Below are positions 4,618-11,185 of a stretch of DNA of 11,341 nt, one piece after another. The stretch is from NCBI GenBank assembly GCA_017452945.1, contig JAFTLD010000010.1, forward strand, positions 1 to 11,341. The letters are read 5' to 3'. A program made the position numbers and the translations under genes. Origin of the DNA: Clostridia bacterium. GTDB lineage: Bacteria > Bacillota_A > Clostridia > Oscillospirales > CAG-272. The notes below the pieces were generated by a model. That model saw nothing but the letters and a program-made list of their open reading frames with translations, was not told the origin of the DNA and did no database searches. The number at the start of each line of letters is the position of its first letter. Within the stretch, counting starts at the first letter, position 1.

Positions 4618-5172
4618 ATGAAAGCCACAGGAATTGTAAGAAGAATCGACGATCTTGGACGTGTTGTGATCCCCAAGGAGATCAGAAGAACCATGAGAAT
4701 CCGCGAGGGGGACCCGCTGGAAATTTTTACTGACCGCGAGGGCGAGGTCATTTTCAAGAAGTATTCGCCCATTGGTGAGCTGGCCTCTTTTGCCGGACAG
4801 TATGCTGAGACCTTGCATAAGATCTGCGGTCTGGGAGTGGTGATCTGTGACCGTGACGCAGTCATTGCGTCCGCGGGTGTGTCACGAAAGGAGTATGCGG
4901 ATAAGGCGCTTTCCGAGGAGCTGGAGAGCGTGATCGAGGGCAGAAGCCTGTACGTTTGGCGCGAAGGTGAAGAGAAATATCCTGTTATTTCGTATGAAAC
5001 AGCGCATTTTGTCAGTTGTGCCATGCCCATTATCAGCGAGGGCGATATCGTGGGCTGCGTGGTGTCTGTGGCGGATAAGTCGGTCGAACGTGCGGGAGAA
5101 ATGCACAGTGACGTGGAATGCAAGCTGGTGCAGACCGCGGCCAGCTTTCTTGGCAGACAATTGGAGGGATGA
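4618..5172 (+). CDS. spoVT: Stage V sporulation regulator SpoVT (AbrB/MazE-type DNA-binding protein)
   Basis: This encodes 184 aa, close to the roughly 178 aa of Bacillus SpoVT. The ATG at 4618 is chosen because MKATGIVRRIDDLGRVVIPK is the standard N-terminus of the family and AAAGGAG (4601-4607) lies 10 bases before it; in-frame codons upstream are not conserved-looking. Residues 1-50 form the swapped-hairpin AbrB DNA-binding domain (DDLGRVVIPKEIRRTMRIREGDPLEIF). Residues about 55-184 form the GAF-like sensory domain (GLGVVICDRDAVIASAGVSRKEY ... VSCAMPIISEGDIVGCVVSVADK). In Bacillus it tunes forespore SigG genes late in sporulation. The gene is monocistronic, with its own terminator after it. 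It suggests an endospore-forming ancestry, although related AbrB/GAF proteins also occur in Clostridia that rarely sporulate. Confidence 0.93.
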   Translation: MKATGIVRRIDDLGRVVIPKEIRRTMRIREGDPLEIFTDREGEVIFKKYSPIGELASFAGQYAETLHKICGLGVVICDRDAVIASAGVSRKEYADKALSEELESVIEGRSLYVWREGEEKYPVISYETAHFVSCAMPIISEGDIVGCVVSVADKSVERAGEMHSDVECKLVQTAASFLGRQLEG

Positions 5173-7006: not shown

Positions 7007-8014
7007 ATGTACATTTTCGGAATGGAAAGCTCCTGCGATGAAACGTCTGCTGCGGTCATTTACGCAGACGATGCAGGGAATTTGACGATCAAATCCAATA
7101 TTGTGGCGTCACAGGTGGACGTGCACCGCTTGTACGGTGGCGTTGTGCCCGAGATCGCAAGCCGCGCACACGTGGAGGCGGTTTCGCGCATCACAAAAGA
7201 GGCACTGGATACCGCGGGTATAGGGATCAAAGATCTGGATTGCGTGGCAGTCACGGCTAATCCGGGGCTGATCGGTGCGCTTTTGGTAGGTGTGAATTTT
7301 GCTAAATCCTTTGCATTTGCCAACAATATACCGCTTGTTGCGGTGAATCACATTCACGCGCACGTGGGTGCGGCATATTTGTCGCATCAGGGACTCAAGG
7401 CTCCCTTTATTGCGCTTGTAGTATCGGGCGGTCATACCCAGTTTTACAGAGTGGATACCGATACGCAGTATACCGAGATCGGTGGTACGCGTGACGATGC
7501 CGCGGGCGAGTCGTTTGACAAGGTCGGCCGTGTGATCGGCATGCCGTATCCCGGTGGTGCCGCTTTGGACAAGCTGGCATACGAGGGGAATCCCAAGGCG
7601 TACGCGCTTCCTTCTCCCGCGCTTGCGGGGGATCGCCCGGACTTCTCGTTCTCGGGTATCAAGACGGCTGCGCTCAATCTCATCAACGGTGCCGCACAGC
7701 GCGGTGAACAGATCAATGCTGCCGATATGGCTGCAAGCTATACGGCAACCATCGTCAAGGGCATTGTCAAGCAGACCGAAAAGGTGCTGGAGCAGACGGG
7801 TACGCCCGTGCTCGTGCTGGCAGGCGGTGTGGCGGCCAATTCGCACCTGCGCCGTGCGCTGCAAGAGCTTTGCGACGCGCATAAGGTCACGCTGGCCGTG
7901 CCTCCCATCTCGCTTTGCGGGGACAACGGCGCTATGGTTGCAGCGGCAGGATACTTTGCCTTTATGGACGGTGAGCGTGCGGGAACGGACCTGAACGCGA
8001 GCGCGTACGATTGA
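7007..8014 (+). CDS. tsaD: tRNA N6-threonylcarbamoyladenosine transferase subunit TsaD
   Basis: This encodes 335 aa, the usual family length. GGAG (6998-7001) lies 5 bases before the ATG. TsaD, with TsaB and TsaE, transfers the threonylcarbamoyl group onto A37 of ANN-decoding tRNAs. The family landmarks are all present: FGMESSCDETSAAV (4-17), the metal-binding H115 and H119 in NHIHAHVGAAYL, VSGGHTQ (139-145), GESFDKVGR (167-175), FSFSGIKT (213-220), LAGGVAAN (271-278) and CGDNGAMVA with Asp306. It ends the four-gene unit. It is essential or nearly so in many bacteria. Confidence 0.97.
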   Translation: MYIFGMESSCDETSAAVIYADDAGNLTIKSNIVASQVDVHRLYGGVVPEIASRAHVEAVSRITKEALDTAGIGIKDLDCVAVTANPGLIGALLVGVNFAKSFAFANNIPLVAVNHIHAHVGAAYLSHQGLKAPFIALVVSGGHTQFYRVDTDTQYTEIGGTRDDAAGESFDKVGRVIGMPYPGGAALDKLAYEGNPKAYALPSPALAGDRPDFSFSGIKTAALNLINGAAQRGEQINAADMAASYTATIVKGIVKQTEKVLEQTGTPVLVLAGGVAANSHLRRALQELCDAHKVTLAVPPISLCGDNGAMVAAAGYFAFMDGERAGTDLNASAYD

Positions 8015-8060
8015 ACATAAATCGTGCGTTTGTCAAGTCCTTTTCAGAAAATAAATCATT

Positions 8061-8081
8061 TTCGTCAAAAGGACGAATTTT
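8061..8081 (+). terminator. Weak hairpin after tsaD, possible terminator
   Basis: TTCGTC (8061-8066), loop AAAAG, GACGAA (8072-8077) and TTTT follow tsaD by about 47 bases. An alternative fold pairs GTCCTTTT (8037-8044) with AAAAGGAC (8067-8074). Both are A+T-rich and weak. Confidence 0.35.
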
Positions 8082-8114
8082 AATGCGGTTTTCATAAAAA
8101 ACACACAAGAATTG

Positions 8115-8263
8115 TTTTCCACATGGGTTTTCAACAGGCTGTGGAAAAACCCGTGGAAAACTGAATAATTCGGAATTTTATTCATGGAAAAATGTGGAAA
8201 TAAACCGAAAAAGGTCGAATTTATAAGCGAAACTGTGGATAAGCCTGTGGAAACTGTGGATAA
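8115..8263. promoter_or_regulatory. DnaA-box cluster in an A+T-rich spacer before rex-dnaD-dnaC
   Basis: Against the DnaA box TTATCCACA, two perfect sites read on the minus strand: 8234-8242 and 8255-8263 (TGTGGATAA). One-mismatch sites are 8115-8123 (TTTTCCACA, plus strand) and 8140-8148 (TGTGGAAAA). Two-mismatch sites are 8128-8136, 8152-8160, 8193-8201 and 8246-8254, the last abutting a perfect box. That is about eight sites in 150 bp, most of them in one orientation, within DNA far richer in A+T than the flanking genes. Such density is typical of origins, DnaA-titration clusters or DnaA-controlled promoters. The rest of the spacer (8015-8114, 8264-8372) shows no convincing promoter by eye, only the weak hairpin listed above. 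Confidence 0.85.
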
Positions 8264-8386
8264 CTTTATGCAAAGATGTACTTGTTGAAAACTTTTCCGA
8301 CAGCCAAACCGTGTTTGAAAGTCAAAATTTTAACAGGAAAAAATATCGTCAATTTACACAAAAAGACAGCCCGGGAGGTATGAATT

Positions 8387-9127
8387 TTGGCATACGAAGA
8401 AATGGAAAAGCAATTGTCCGAGAGCTCCGAGGGACACAAGGAGCACGGCATAAAACCCTATATTTCTCCTGCAGTCGTACGCAGATTGCCGCGATACTAT
8501 CGCTATCTGCGTGAGCTTTTGACGCAGGGCATTACGCGTATCAGCTCAAGTGAGCTATCCGCGCGTATGAACGTGACCGCCTCACAGATCCGTCAGGATC
8601 TCAACTGCTTTGGCGGCTTTGGCCAGCAAGGCTACGGCTATAACGTGCATTATCTGTTCACCTGCATCAGCGAAATTCTGGGTGTAGGTGCGGGTTTCCA
8701 CGCCATCATTATCGGTGCGGGGGATCTTGGCCGCGCTCTGGTGCATCTTTCCATGTTTGAAAAGCGCGGTGTGGATATTTTGGGCATGTTTGATGCGGAT
8801 ACCTCCATGGCAGGCGTTGAGGTCGCAGGCGTTAAGATCTATCCGCTTTACGAGCTGGAACAGTTCTGTGCGCAAAATCAGGTGGATATTGCGGTGTTGA
8901 CGTTGCCCAAAGAGGGAGTGCCTGCCGTGGCGGAACGATTGGTCAAGTGCGGTGTCAAGGGACTGTGGAATTATATGGGTGTTGAGCTGGATTACAGCAG
9001 GGATGATATTGTGATCGAAAACGTGCACTTGGGGGATTCGTTGATGATCCTCAATTATGAGATCTGCCGCAAGATGCAGGAAAAGCAAGAGGCACGGCAA
9101 GAACAGCTCTTGCAGGACGAGGAGTAA
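8387..9127 (+). CDS. rex: Redox-sensing transcriptional repressor Rex
   Basis: This encodes 246 aa starting at TTG 8387, chosen because GGGAGG (8373-8378) is 8 bases before it. The next in-frame ATG (8402) is 23 bases from that site, and ATG 8380 is in a different frame. Residues 25-87 form the winged-helix domain (ISPAVVRRLPRYYRYL ... SELSARMNVTASQIRQDL). Residues about 103-225 form the Rossmann domain with GAGDLG (110-115), then FDAD (135-138). Rex leaves its operators when NADH rises and so derepresses fermentation and NADH-oxidising genes. The charged, Gln-rich tail after about 227 makes it longer than the usual 210-220 aa. It leads an operon with two replication genes, 8 bases before the next start. 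I saw no clear Rex operator (TTGTTAA-type) upstream. Confidence 0.94.
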   Translation: MAYEEMEKQLSESSEGHKEHGIKPYISPAVVRRLPRYYRYLRELLTQGITRISSSELSARMNVTASQIRQDLNCFGGFGQQGYGYNVHYLFTCISEILGVGAGFHAIIIGAGDLGRALVHLSMFEKRGVDILGMFDADTSMAGVEVAGVKIYPLYELEQFCAQNQVDIAVLTLPKEGVPAVAERLVKCGVKGLWNYMGVELDYSRDDIVIENVHLGDSLMILNYEICRKMQEKQEARQEQLLQDEE

Positions 9128-9135
9128 GGAGATTT

Positions 9136-10206
9136 ATGGCTTTACAGATTCAATACGGAAACAGTGTGGTGGTACTGCCCGGTAAGGCGGCAGACGCTGT
9201 GCGTGATGCGGAAAAAAGCGACCTGGCGGTGCTTTTGGTGCTGCTTTCGGACGCATCCCTTTGCAACGCATACGGGCAAAAGGGGAGTGCCGAAGCCATT
9301 GCGCAAGCTGCTGGCTGCTCCGAGGACGAGGTGCGCTCAGCCGTGGCCTTTTGGCGCGGTGCGGGGGTGCTGAGTGTTGTCGGAGAGAAAAAGAAAAAGG
9401 TGCAGGAAACTGCTGTTGAAGAGAAAAGCGCGTCTGTGCAGACTGCACCCGCGGCAGCAGCACCCGCAGCAGACGGTGCTGCACTGCTTAAAAAGAGTGA
9501 CGAACTGCCCAAGTATACGACGGCCGAGCTCGGGAACCTGTTAGAGGCAAGACCCGAAACGGCTGCTTTGCTGGAGGAGTGTCAGAACCTGTTTGGCAAG
9601 CTGTTTTCTACACATGAGGTCAACACCGTTCTGGGACTGACCGATTATTTGGGTTTGGATACAGAGTACGTGCTGATTTTAGTCACGCATTACTGCCAGT
9701 ATTGCAGATTGCAGGAAAAGCGCCCCTCTGTCAGAGGCCTGGAAAAGCTGGCAATTTCTCTGTATGATCGCGGCATTACCGATATGGCCGCGCTGCAGGA
9801 GGAGCTTTTGCGTCAGGAAGAGCTGCAAAAGACGCAAGGGCAGCTGCGCGCGTTGTTTGGCATTGGTGCGCGTGCGTTGACCACCAAGGAAAAGCGTATG
9901 TTCTCGGATTGGGTACATACCTATAAGTACGATATGGAGATGATCAAGCTGGCTTTTGAGATCGGCATGGATGCTTCGCCCGATGCGTCGGTGGCGTATA
10001 TCGATTCGATTCTCAAGCGTTGGAACAGCGAAAATATCCGTACCGCGGCAGACGTGGAAAAAGACAGGACTGCCCGTGAGGCCAAAAGAGGCAATGGAAA
10101 GACTGCAGAGACACAGAGCAGCAGCTTTGATACCGATGACTTTTTTGATGCCGCCATGCGCCGCAGCCTTGGCGACAATTACGATAAAATCATAAAGGGA
10201 GAGTGA
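9136..10206 (+). CDS. DnaD-domain replication-initiation protein
   Basis: This encodes 356 aa. AAGGAG (9126-9131), overlapping the rex stop codon, precedes the ATG. Residues about 20-82 look like a winged-helix region (LVLLSDASLCNAYGQKGSAEAIAQAAGCSEDEVRSAVAFWRGAGVL). A Lys run and an Ala/Pro-rich linker (85-118) follow. Two DnaD/DnaB-type DDBH2 segments come next: about 128-215 and 235-305, the latter with the signature AYIDSILKRW (287-296). The C-terminal 60 residues are polar and probably disordered. In Bacillus, DnaD and DnaB bridge DnaA at the origin and the helicase loader DnaI. Two DDBH2 copies make it resemble DnaB in layout as much as DnaD, so I give no symbol. It sits directly before the loader gene, its expected partner. 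Confidence 0.88.
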   Translation: MALQIQYGNSVVVLPGKAADAVRDAEKSDLAVLLVLLSDASLCNAYGQKGSAEAIAQAAGCSEDEVRSAVAFWRGAGVLSVVGEKKKKVQETAVEEKSASVQTAPAAAAPAADGAALLKKSDELPKYTTAELGNLLEARPETAALLEECQNLFGKLFSTHEVNTVLGLTDYLGLDTEYVLILVTHYCQYCRLQEKRPSVRGLEKLAISLYDRGITDMAALQEELLRQEELQKTQGQLRALFGIGARALTTKEKRMFSDWVHTYKYDMEMIKLAFEIGMDASPDASVAYIDSILKRWNSENIRTAADVEKDRTAREAKRGNGKTAETQSSSFDTDDFFDAAMRRSLGDNYDKIIKGE

Positions 10207-10210
10207 GCGC

Positions 10211-11185
10211 ATGGGTTATAATCAAGAGAATTTCCGCAGAATACGCGAAGAGTACAGCCGTAAGTACCTACAGGTACAAGAGGCCGCTACCAAGAGAAGA
10301 GAAGAGATCCATGCAATTCTACCCGAGGTGCAAGAAATCGATTCGCAGCTTTCGGATATGGGACTTAGGATCATGCAGGCTGCACTGCAGAGCGAGAATT
10401 ACCAAGCCGAATTGGCAAAAATCGAGGCACAGTCGCATGCGCTGGAGCAGAGAAGGGCAGAGGTATTGATCCAAAACGGTTTTCCTGCTGATTACACTGC
10501 GCCCAAGTACGAGTGCGCGGCTTGCGGTGACACCGGCTATATCGATTATAAAATGTGTGACTGTATGCGCAAAAAGCTGATTTTGGCGGGTTATGAATCC
10601 AGTGGCATCGGTACACTGATGCAGACGCAAAGCTTTGAGAATTTCTCGCTGGACTATTATAAATCCGATCGCATGACCTATCTGCTCATGCAAAGCAATT
10701 TTGAAAAGGCCAAGGAGTATGCCAAGAGCTTCCACCCTGCAAAGAGTGACAATCTTGCCATGTTCGGCGGCACAGGGCTTGGCAAAACGCACCTTTCCAC
10801 CGCCATTGCGCGTGAGGTCATTGAGAGCGGCTGGGACGTGGTGTACGTCAGTTGCGTGGATATGTTCGCAGATTATGAGGCACACCGCTTTGGTAACAGC
10901 ACGGGTACGCCCACGGGCGCAGATCTCTCGCGCTATACCGATTGCGACCTGCTCATTATCGACGACCTTGGCACCGAGCTGTCCAATCAGTTCACCACCT
11001 CCTGTCTGTATGGGCTGCTCAACACGCGCTTGAACAGACATTTGCCCGTCATTCTGAGTACAAACCTTGAGACCGACGAGTTCCGTAAGCGGTATTGGGA
11101 TCGCATCACCAGCCGCGTGCTGGGCAATTTTACCATCATGCCCTTCAAGGGAACAGACGTAAGAAGACAGAAGCTGAGTAAATAA
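10211..11185 (+). CDS. dnaC: Helicase-loader AAA+ ATPase, DnaC/DnaI family
   Basis: This encodes 324 aa; GGGAG (10197-10201) lies 9 bases before the ATG, which is 4 bases after the preceding stop. Residues 1-90 are helical and charged, probably a coiled coil. A four-cysteine zinc site follows (C102, C105, C116, C118). The AAA+ core has Walker A GGTGLGKT (186-193), Walker B LLIIDD (247-252), sensor STN (283-285) and an arginine-finger region RITSRVLGNF (298-307). Proteins of this type load the replicative hexameric helicase at the origin and at restart sites; DnaI of Bacillus likewise has a zinc-binding N-terminal domain. A IstB-type transposition ATPase is the main alternative, but the zinc domain and the DnaD-domain neighbour favour replication. 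It ends the rex operon. Confidence 0.92.
   Translation: MGYNQENFRRIREEYSRKYLQVQEAATKRREEIHAILPEVQEIDSQLSDMGLRIMQAALQSENYQAELAKIEAQSHALEQRRAEVLIQNGFPADYTAPKYECAACGDTGYIDYKMCDCMRKKLILAGYESSGIGTLMQTQSFENFSLDYYKSDRMTYLLMQSNFEKAKEYAKSFHPAKSDNLAMFGGTGLGKTHLSTAIAREVIESGWDVVYVSCVDMFADYEAHRFGNSTGTPTGADLSRYTDCDLLIIDDLGTELSNQFTTSCLYGLLNTRLNRHLPVILSTNLETDEFRKRYWDRITSRVLGNFTIMPFKGTDVRRQKLSK

Follow-up and report, generated by a model that had tools for sequence, protein, structure and literature searches.

Genes and features of the locus

The window, by which we mean the whole stretch of 11,341 nucleotides analysed here, carries tsaD followed by rex, dnaD and dnaC, all on the forward strand; Pfam matches bore out the gene names, among them the rex-dnaD-dnaC of the earlier note (Table 1). 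The gap between tsaD and rex (8015-8386, 372 bp, 35% GC) contains the group of DnaA-like boxes that is the subject of this work. Ahead of the first box, in the stretch that follows the tsaD stop (8030-8080), several relatives showed a semi-conserved TTTGTCAAG and AATTCGTC...hairpin-like stretch, which is perhaps the tsaD terminator. Spo0A-like boxes near the end of tsaD were judged by eye in the alignment of 18 relatives described below and were dropped. Elsewhere in the window, positions 1-1008 encode the C-terminal part of an Rhs-like protein (a reading made by eye), in which a TNT domain was matched (Pfam E 9.2e-22) and which looks like the tail of a polymorphic toxin, and positions 4618-5172 encode a SpoVT-like regulator (Pfam SpoVT_C).

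Table 1. Features of the tsaD-rex region in window coordinates. Identity is the agreement of each box with the window over 18 cluster-positive relatives.
Feature	Position	Strand	Remarks
tsaD	7007..8014	+	Pfam TsaD, E 3.5e-88; box cluster linked to its 3' end
Terminator-like hairpin (weak) behind tsaD	8061..8077	+	6-bp stem with 3 GC pairs; consensus match only
DnaA box TTTTCCACA	8115..8123	+	Identity 0.86
DnaA-like box TTTTCAACA	8128..8136	+	Identity 0.85
DnaA box TTTTCCACA	8140..8148	-	Identity 0.96, highest of the nine boxes
DnaA-like box TTTTCCACG	8152..8160	-	Identity 0.20; unconserved
DnaA-like box ATTTCCACA	8193..8201	-	Identity 0.38; poorly conserved in near relatives
Triple DnaA box, starts 8234/8246/8255 (0, +12, +21)	8234..8263	-	Identity 0.89, 0.73 and 0.87; recurrent signature
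DnaA-like box TTTTCAACA	8283..8291	-	Identity 0.89; conserved, beyond the coordinates of the earlier note
rex	8387..9127	+	Pfam Put_DNA-bind_N and CoA_binding
dnaD-like	9136..10206	+	DnaB_2 domain
dnaC/dnaI-like AAA+ helicase loader	10211..11185	+	IstB_IS21 and Bac_DnaA matches

Density and conservation of the boxes

A box scan confirmed the eight DnaA-like boxes, two of them perfect, that had been described between 8115 and 8263. When up to two mismatches to TTATCCACA are allowed, eight sites start there, at 8115 and 8128 on the forward strand and at 8140, 8152, 8193, 8234, 8246 and 8255 on the reverse strand, the perfect matches being those at 8234 and 8255; further two-mismatch sites follow at 8266 (forward) and 8283 (reverse). 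The motif TTWTNCACA occurred five times in the whole window (0.95 expected), with four of the five inside the cluster. In the tsaD-rex gap we counted four exact TTWTCCACA and nine sites with at most one mismatch, eight of these inside 150 bp, whereas in 2000 dinucleotide shuffles of the gap these three counts averaged 0.04, 0.62 and 0.56 and never exceeded 2, 5 and 4. The cluster is real and far above chance.

A locus was called cluster-positive when at least three boxes with at most one mismatch lay in 250 bp between tsaD and rex. The window gap was aligned with 18 of the 28 cluster-positive relatives on the tree described below, gaps being counted as disagreement. Agreement with the window reached 74% of cells in the boxes, 33% between boxes and 30% in the rest of the gap, a contrast between boxes and spacers that is due in part to the selection of these relatives for having boxes. 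Seven of the nine boxes had identities of 0.73-0.96, the exceptions being those at 8152 and 8193. A common layout consisted of one or two rightward boxes and one leftward box, about 90-110 bp of variable DNA and then three leftward boxes, often with one more; two loci (L038 and L052) were without the long spacer between the box groups.

Linkage of the cluster to the 3' end of tsaD

Relatives were collected by searching the window Rex in one genome per species and taking the best 80 loci, the first of them at 70% identity. Most carried titles of metagenome-assembled genomes (Oscillospiraceae, Clostridia or Clostridiales), ruminant guts being a frequent source, and Pseudobacteroides was the one named strain. 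Among these best 80 loci, rex, dnaD and dnaC occurred together in 67; 12 were without a dnaD match and one ended before dnaC. With the window added there were 81 loci, of which 13 had no tsaD match, and the box map of the tsaD-rex gap comprised the remaining 68. Presence of the cluster varied with the length of the gap: it was found in 0/34 loci with gaps of up to 130 bp, in 23/25 with gaps of 131-1000 bp (a class that includes the window and in which L015 and L039 fell short of a cluster) and in 6/9 with gaps above 1000 bp. Since 39 of the 68 loci had no cluster, 34 of them with a gap of up to 130 bp, the cluster is dispensable in many lineages.

In five loci with extra DNA in the gap (L043, L050, L064, L071 and L078) the main box group followed tsaD at a distance of 8-340 bp, while rex was over 1.1 kb away, with stray single sites further from tsaD in L050 and L078; in L080, the sixth cluster-positive locus with a gap above 1000 bp, the group was found 625-711 bp behind tsaD. 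Because the boxes remain near tsaD where extra DNA parts the two genes, the cluster belongs with the 3' end of tsaD and not with rex-dnaD-dnaC. On a quick tree of TsaD and Rex, cluster presence required 10 changes compared with 22 for shuffled labels, and none of 500 shuffles was that low; presence thus tracks descent, the cluster having been lost or gained repeatedly. The closest kin of the window on this tree included both cluster-positive and cluster-negative loci.

For a survey of the class, the window TsaD was compared with 245 genomes of the class of G002 (titled Clostridia bacterium), of which 233 matched. We used 90 of these 233 tsaD loci, namely the best 30 and 60 of the next 61 (one ended by a contig end), a sample that leans to window-like TsaD. 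Within 500 bp behind tsaD, groups of at least three boxes per 150 bp were present in 30/90 loci (0.19 expected from shuffles) and groups of at least four in 25/90 (0.01 expected), the remaining 60 having no group of at least three. Position mattered as well: among the 89 loci with 800 bp available behind the stop, a group occurred in bases 1-300 in 28 and in bases 501-800 in one, and the coding ends of tsaD contained box groups in 0/30 loci over 500 bp and in 0/60 over stretches of 113-200 bp. Both this sample and the set of Rex loci are biased to window-like proteins, and the genomes are mostly fragmented. Among the first 30 class loci, rex lay within the 1.5-kb flank of tsaD only at the locus of G002 itself. 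In B. subtilis, where we take gcp to be the older name of tsaD, rex (ydiH) presumably lies two genes on from it.

A recurrent three-box register

The 0/+12/+21 arrangement of the triple was first noticed by eye in early loci and then sought as TGTGGA-N6-TGTGGA-N3-TGTGGA in the 245 class genomes, giving 47 matches in 41 genomes, as against 0/245 for the reversed pattern. Thirty of these loci were examined, and 27 of them were on the same strand as tsaD, at 48-421 bp behind its stop. A further box was present at -42 to -44 in 19 of the 27, and the window box at 8193, 41 bp ahead of the triple, is near this place. By coordinates, nine of the other 17 matches were behind tsaD and eight were not. 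Altogether 36/47 triples were located behind tsaD on its strand, or 29/40 when the seven genomes in which the register was first noticed were set aside; the 11 matches elsewhere were in G121, G126, G162, G260, G031, G060 (three), G094 (two) and G181. The three examined triples without tsaD nearby were L186, L188 and L201; the next gene looked by eye like a dihydroorotate dehydrogenase gene in L186 and like mnmG/gidA in L201, and L188 ended at the contig end.

In a sample of the phylum, the triple with one mismatch was found in 69/199 genomes compared with 4 for the reversed pattern. Thirty of these loci were examined, with tsaD within 1.5 kb in 15 (on the opposite strand in L299) and absent in 15; in five of the phylum triples (L290-L293 and L308) the matched letters were, by eye, unlike DnaA boxes. 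At least 12 of the 28 cluster-positive relatives also had the triple, with one mismatch allowed, in their tsaD-rex gap. The register is common, not universal. Among the relatives with a short tsaD-rex gap (33 of 34, L026 left out), seven had a triple elsewhere in the genome. A second recurrent triple (one mismatch), away from tsaD-rex and about 21-28 kb downstream of dnaA, was observed in four genomes of the wider lineage of the window, at G013:C14:31941, G011:C5:108345, G014:C66:4470 and G015:C39:45999, and similar triples occurred at other places in seven more genomes (G012, G016, G017, G018, G019, G020 and G023). The recurrence of the register suggests more than a sponge, and DnaA molecules may be able to make contact when bound to boxes with spacings of 9, 12 and 42-44 bp.

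Genes downstream of the cluster and possible control of rex-dnaD-dnaC

Downstream ORFs of at least 80 aa, called mechanically, were found at 25 of the 27 tsaD-linked triple loci, 14 on the opposite strand and 11 on the same strand (that of L196 looks spurious). Nine next genes, chosen by eye as different, represented nine Pfam families (radical SAM, SLT, CBS, BioY, GntR/FCD, SpoIIR, RNA polymerase beta, ABC and polysaccharide synthesis). Several of the remaining next genes seem by eye to be further SLT and BioY genes, and the triple loci are accordingly not all independent. Across the class, no fixed gene lies downstream of the cluster.

These data bear on the feedback switch proposed in the earlier note, in which DnaA would govern its helicase-loading partners. 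On this reading DnaA bound at the cluster would act as a transcription factor, repressing or activating the rex-dnaD-dnaC promoter and tying the supply of helicase loader to free DnaA. Conservation of the boxes upstream of the orthologous operon held for the gap class of 131-1000 bp, where the cluster stands directly upstream of rex in nearly all loci, the window included; it did not hold for the 34 of 68 loci with a short gap, which had no cluster, and in the five loci split by extra DNA the boxes stayed with tsaD. The cluster itself is conserved, but it goes with tsaD and not with the operon. Weak promoter-like matches (9 of 12 positions) numbered three in 7950-8450 compared with 0.9 expected, among them 8142-8169, which overlaps boxes, and 8315-8344, and one paper describes B. 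subtilis DnaA as acting as a transcription factor at certain sites away from the origin (PMC4447404). Class-wide, on the other hand, the genes that come next are varied, and a cluster between two convergent 3' ends, as in 14 of the 25 triple loci with a downstream ORF, is the promoter of neither gene. Because 34 of the 39 cluster-less loci have a gap of up to 130 bp, a rex-dnaD-dnaC promoter may lie in or after the cluster and be modulated by DnaA. We regard control of this operon as an unlikely account of why the cluster exists; it is possible but secondary, a plausible added effect and not the conserved function.

The suggestion that replication genes would be coupled through Rex to the NADH/NAD+ state found no support. 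With the operator consensus that we assumed for Rex, TTGTTAANNNNTTAACAA, the best match upstream of the window rex had 10 of 14 fixed bases, and the best matches in cluster-positive relatives had 8-11 of 14 at inconsistent places, all these being scores without a shuffle control. The candidate operator was dropped on account of these inconsistent places.

A catalytic element that recycles DnaA in the manner of E. coli datA or DARS was also considered, in which the register would arrange DnaA in a defined oligomer, so that ATP is hydrolysed or nucleotide is released faster. The recurrent triple and its companion box at -42 to -44 would suit such an element, as would the behaviour of the B. subtilis gcp/ydiF region, which one paper counts as one of two high-affinity regions with the largest preference for ATP over ADP (16-fold at 55 nM; PMC4447404). 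Against this, one review knows of no regulator of DnaA-ATP conversion in B. subtilis (PMC5295017), and according to another review this species is without datA, DARS and IHF (PMC13220808). We consider such a catalytic role improbable.

Position relative to the replication origin

Dense boxes in A+T-rich DNA with helicase-loading genes adjoining had led the earlier note to consider a displaced or secondary origin as well, but this is contradicted in the relatives, on which the case rests, by a constant sign of GC skew and by a dnaA gene with its own box cluster. Mean GC skew had the same sign on both sides of the cluster in 7/7 long contigs (G002, G022, G023, G011, G013, G025 and G017), and the change of sign that might have marked an origin was likewise missing from the window (+0.116 to the left and +0.119 to the right). 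In G022 and G025 the skew was negative on both sides of the tsaD-rex cluster, and these two genomes were uninformative at dnaA too.

The dnaA gene was searched for in the genomes of 25 of the 80 Rex loci, those in which the 500 bp upstream of rex contain one or more exact TTWTCCACA, including L015 and L039 with fewer than three boxes. It was present in 24/25, and in 20/24 the 900 bp behind the region encoding the DnaA C-terminal domain contained at least three boxes per 150 bp. No dnaA was found among the ten window ORFs scanned with Pfam, the dnaC-like protein matching only the Bac_DnaA ATPase domain. Skew at dnaA was determined in 15 of 19 dnaA stretches, those with enough upstream DNA (G001, G008, G009 and G012 were left out). 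It changed from minus to plus in nine, one of which (G017) had just 2.3 kb downstream, and did not in the other six, G025 turning from plus to minus; the skew test is in this respect unclean at dnaA itself. In G017 the tsaD-rex cluster and dnaA were about 21 kb apart on one 38-kb contig, each with its own cluster, and in six stretches of 55-60 kb the tsaD-rex cluster was the sole group of at least three exact boxes with neighbours within 300 bp. Three exact boxes were also seen about 5.2-5.7 kb downstream of the 3' part of dnaA in L110, L111 and L112 (G025, G021 and G022), in G021 and G022 in addition to the cluster directly behind dnaA. These sequences make it very improbable that the main origin lies at the cluster, nothing seems to ask for a silent secondary one, and we find an origin of either kind at this place scarcely credible.

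The distance between tsaD and dnaA was estimated in six genomes that are near-complete on a single contig and that all carry a cluster behind tsaD; the values are approximate, as contigs were treated as circular. They amounted to 19% of the chromosome in G050, 13% in G226, 23% in G161, 20% in G088, 6% in G116 and 48% in G067. Thus, tsaD was nearer the origin than the terminus in 5/6 genomes, G067 being the exception.

A probable off-origin DnaA-box cluster

Of the three options offered by the earlier note, a DnaA-titration cluster was the best supported. We think it probable that the boxes form an off-origin DnaA-box cluster (DBC) tied to the 3' end of tsaD, a counterpart of the B. subtilis gcp-ydiF DBC whose binding of DnaA restrains initiation. 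A tie to tsaD that involves no single promoter, the dense packing of the boxes and a location mostly on the oriC side of the chromosome agree with a site that, once copied, takes up DnaA at a distance from oriC. Binding of DnaA to the two groups of boxes (8115-8160 and 8234-8291) would be cooperative. Where it is nearer oriC than the terminus, the site would be copied early and would double soon after initiation; the doubled site would pull free DnaA from oriC, and re-initiation would be restrained, as analogy with B. subtilis leads us to expect. The genes rex-dnaD-dnaC would stand behind the cluster by neighbourhood, any local control of the operon being an added effect in the lineage of the window.

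Some observations sit less easily with titration. In G067 about 48% of the chromosome separates the cluster from dnaA, a poor fit with early duplication. For B. subtilis, one review reports that about 10-fold overproduction of DnaA caused no over-initiation, which speaks against simple titration (PMC13220808), and another review describes the clusters of this species as without a significant role in initiation (PMC5295017). Removal of six off-origin clusters from B. subtilis is reported to lead to early initiation (Okumura 2012, as cited in PMC5295017 and PMC13220808).

A bolder proposal, which we put forward tentatively and hold to be possible but doubtful, is that a DnaA-binding control element behind tsaD predates the split between Clostridia and Bacilli. 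It would have a preferred register (boxes near -53/-43 and the triple at 0/+12/+21) on which DnaA assembles in a defined way, would be the Firmicutes counterpart of datA/DARS and would have stayed by tsaD while the downstream genes were exchanged.

Off-origin DnaA-box loci are already known in E. coli and B. subtilis, and their worth in B. subtilis is disputed. The same place, often with one register, across many relatives argues for selection keeping the cluster, and box spacing, beyond box number, may count. The disputed question can now be put to the test: does the tsaD cluster set the timing of initiation, and does it do so by simple binding or through a defined DnaA assembly?

Comparison with known systems

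The cluster resembles the bipartite Firmicutes oriC of the dnaA region in box type and in the packing of its boxes, and differs from it in lying away from dnaA and in showing no change of skew sign. With DnaA-bound promoters such as sda of B. subtilis it shares, in the lineage of the window, a box cluster upstream of an operon, whereas class-wide the tsaD cluster is not tied to one downstream promoter. The E. coli loci datA, DARS1 and DARS2 are likewise DnaA-box loci away from oriC and determine how much active DnaA is available; as described in a review, they act on the nucleotide state of DnaA, datA needing IHF and DARS2 binding both IHF and Fis (PMC5295017).

The closest likeness is to the gcp-ydiF DBC of B. 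subtilis. In one paper the gcp/ydiF region, with 10 sites, is listed fourth among the top 20 DnaA regions in vitro, with a Kd of 0.15 uM with ATP and 0.33 with ADP (PMC4447404). A literature search found no tsaD-linked cluster outside B. subtilis, a weak result, as most subscription papers were beyond reach. The window cluster shows these features of a B. subtilis-type DBC: packed intergenic boxes beyond chance, a location outside oriC (in the relatives) and a place at the 3' end of tsaD, and from this position and one paper, the register aside, it may be homologous to the gcp cluster. Both consist of densely set DnaA boxes, off oriC, in the intergenic region that directly follows tsaD (gcp); they differ in that ydiF converges on the cluster in B. 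subtilis, whereas rex-dnaD-dnaC is codirectional in the window.
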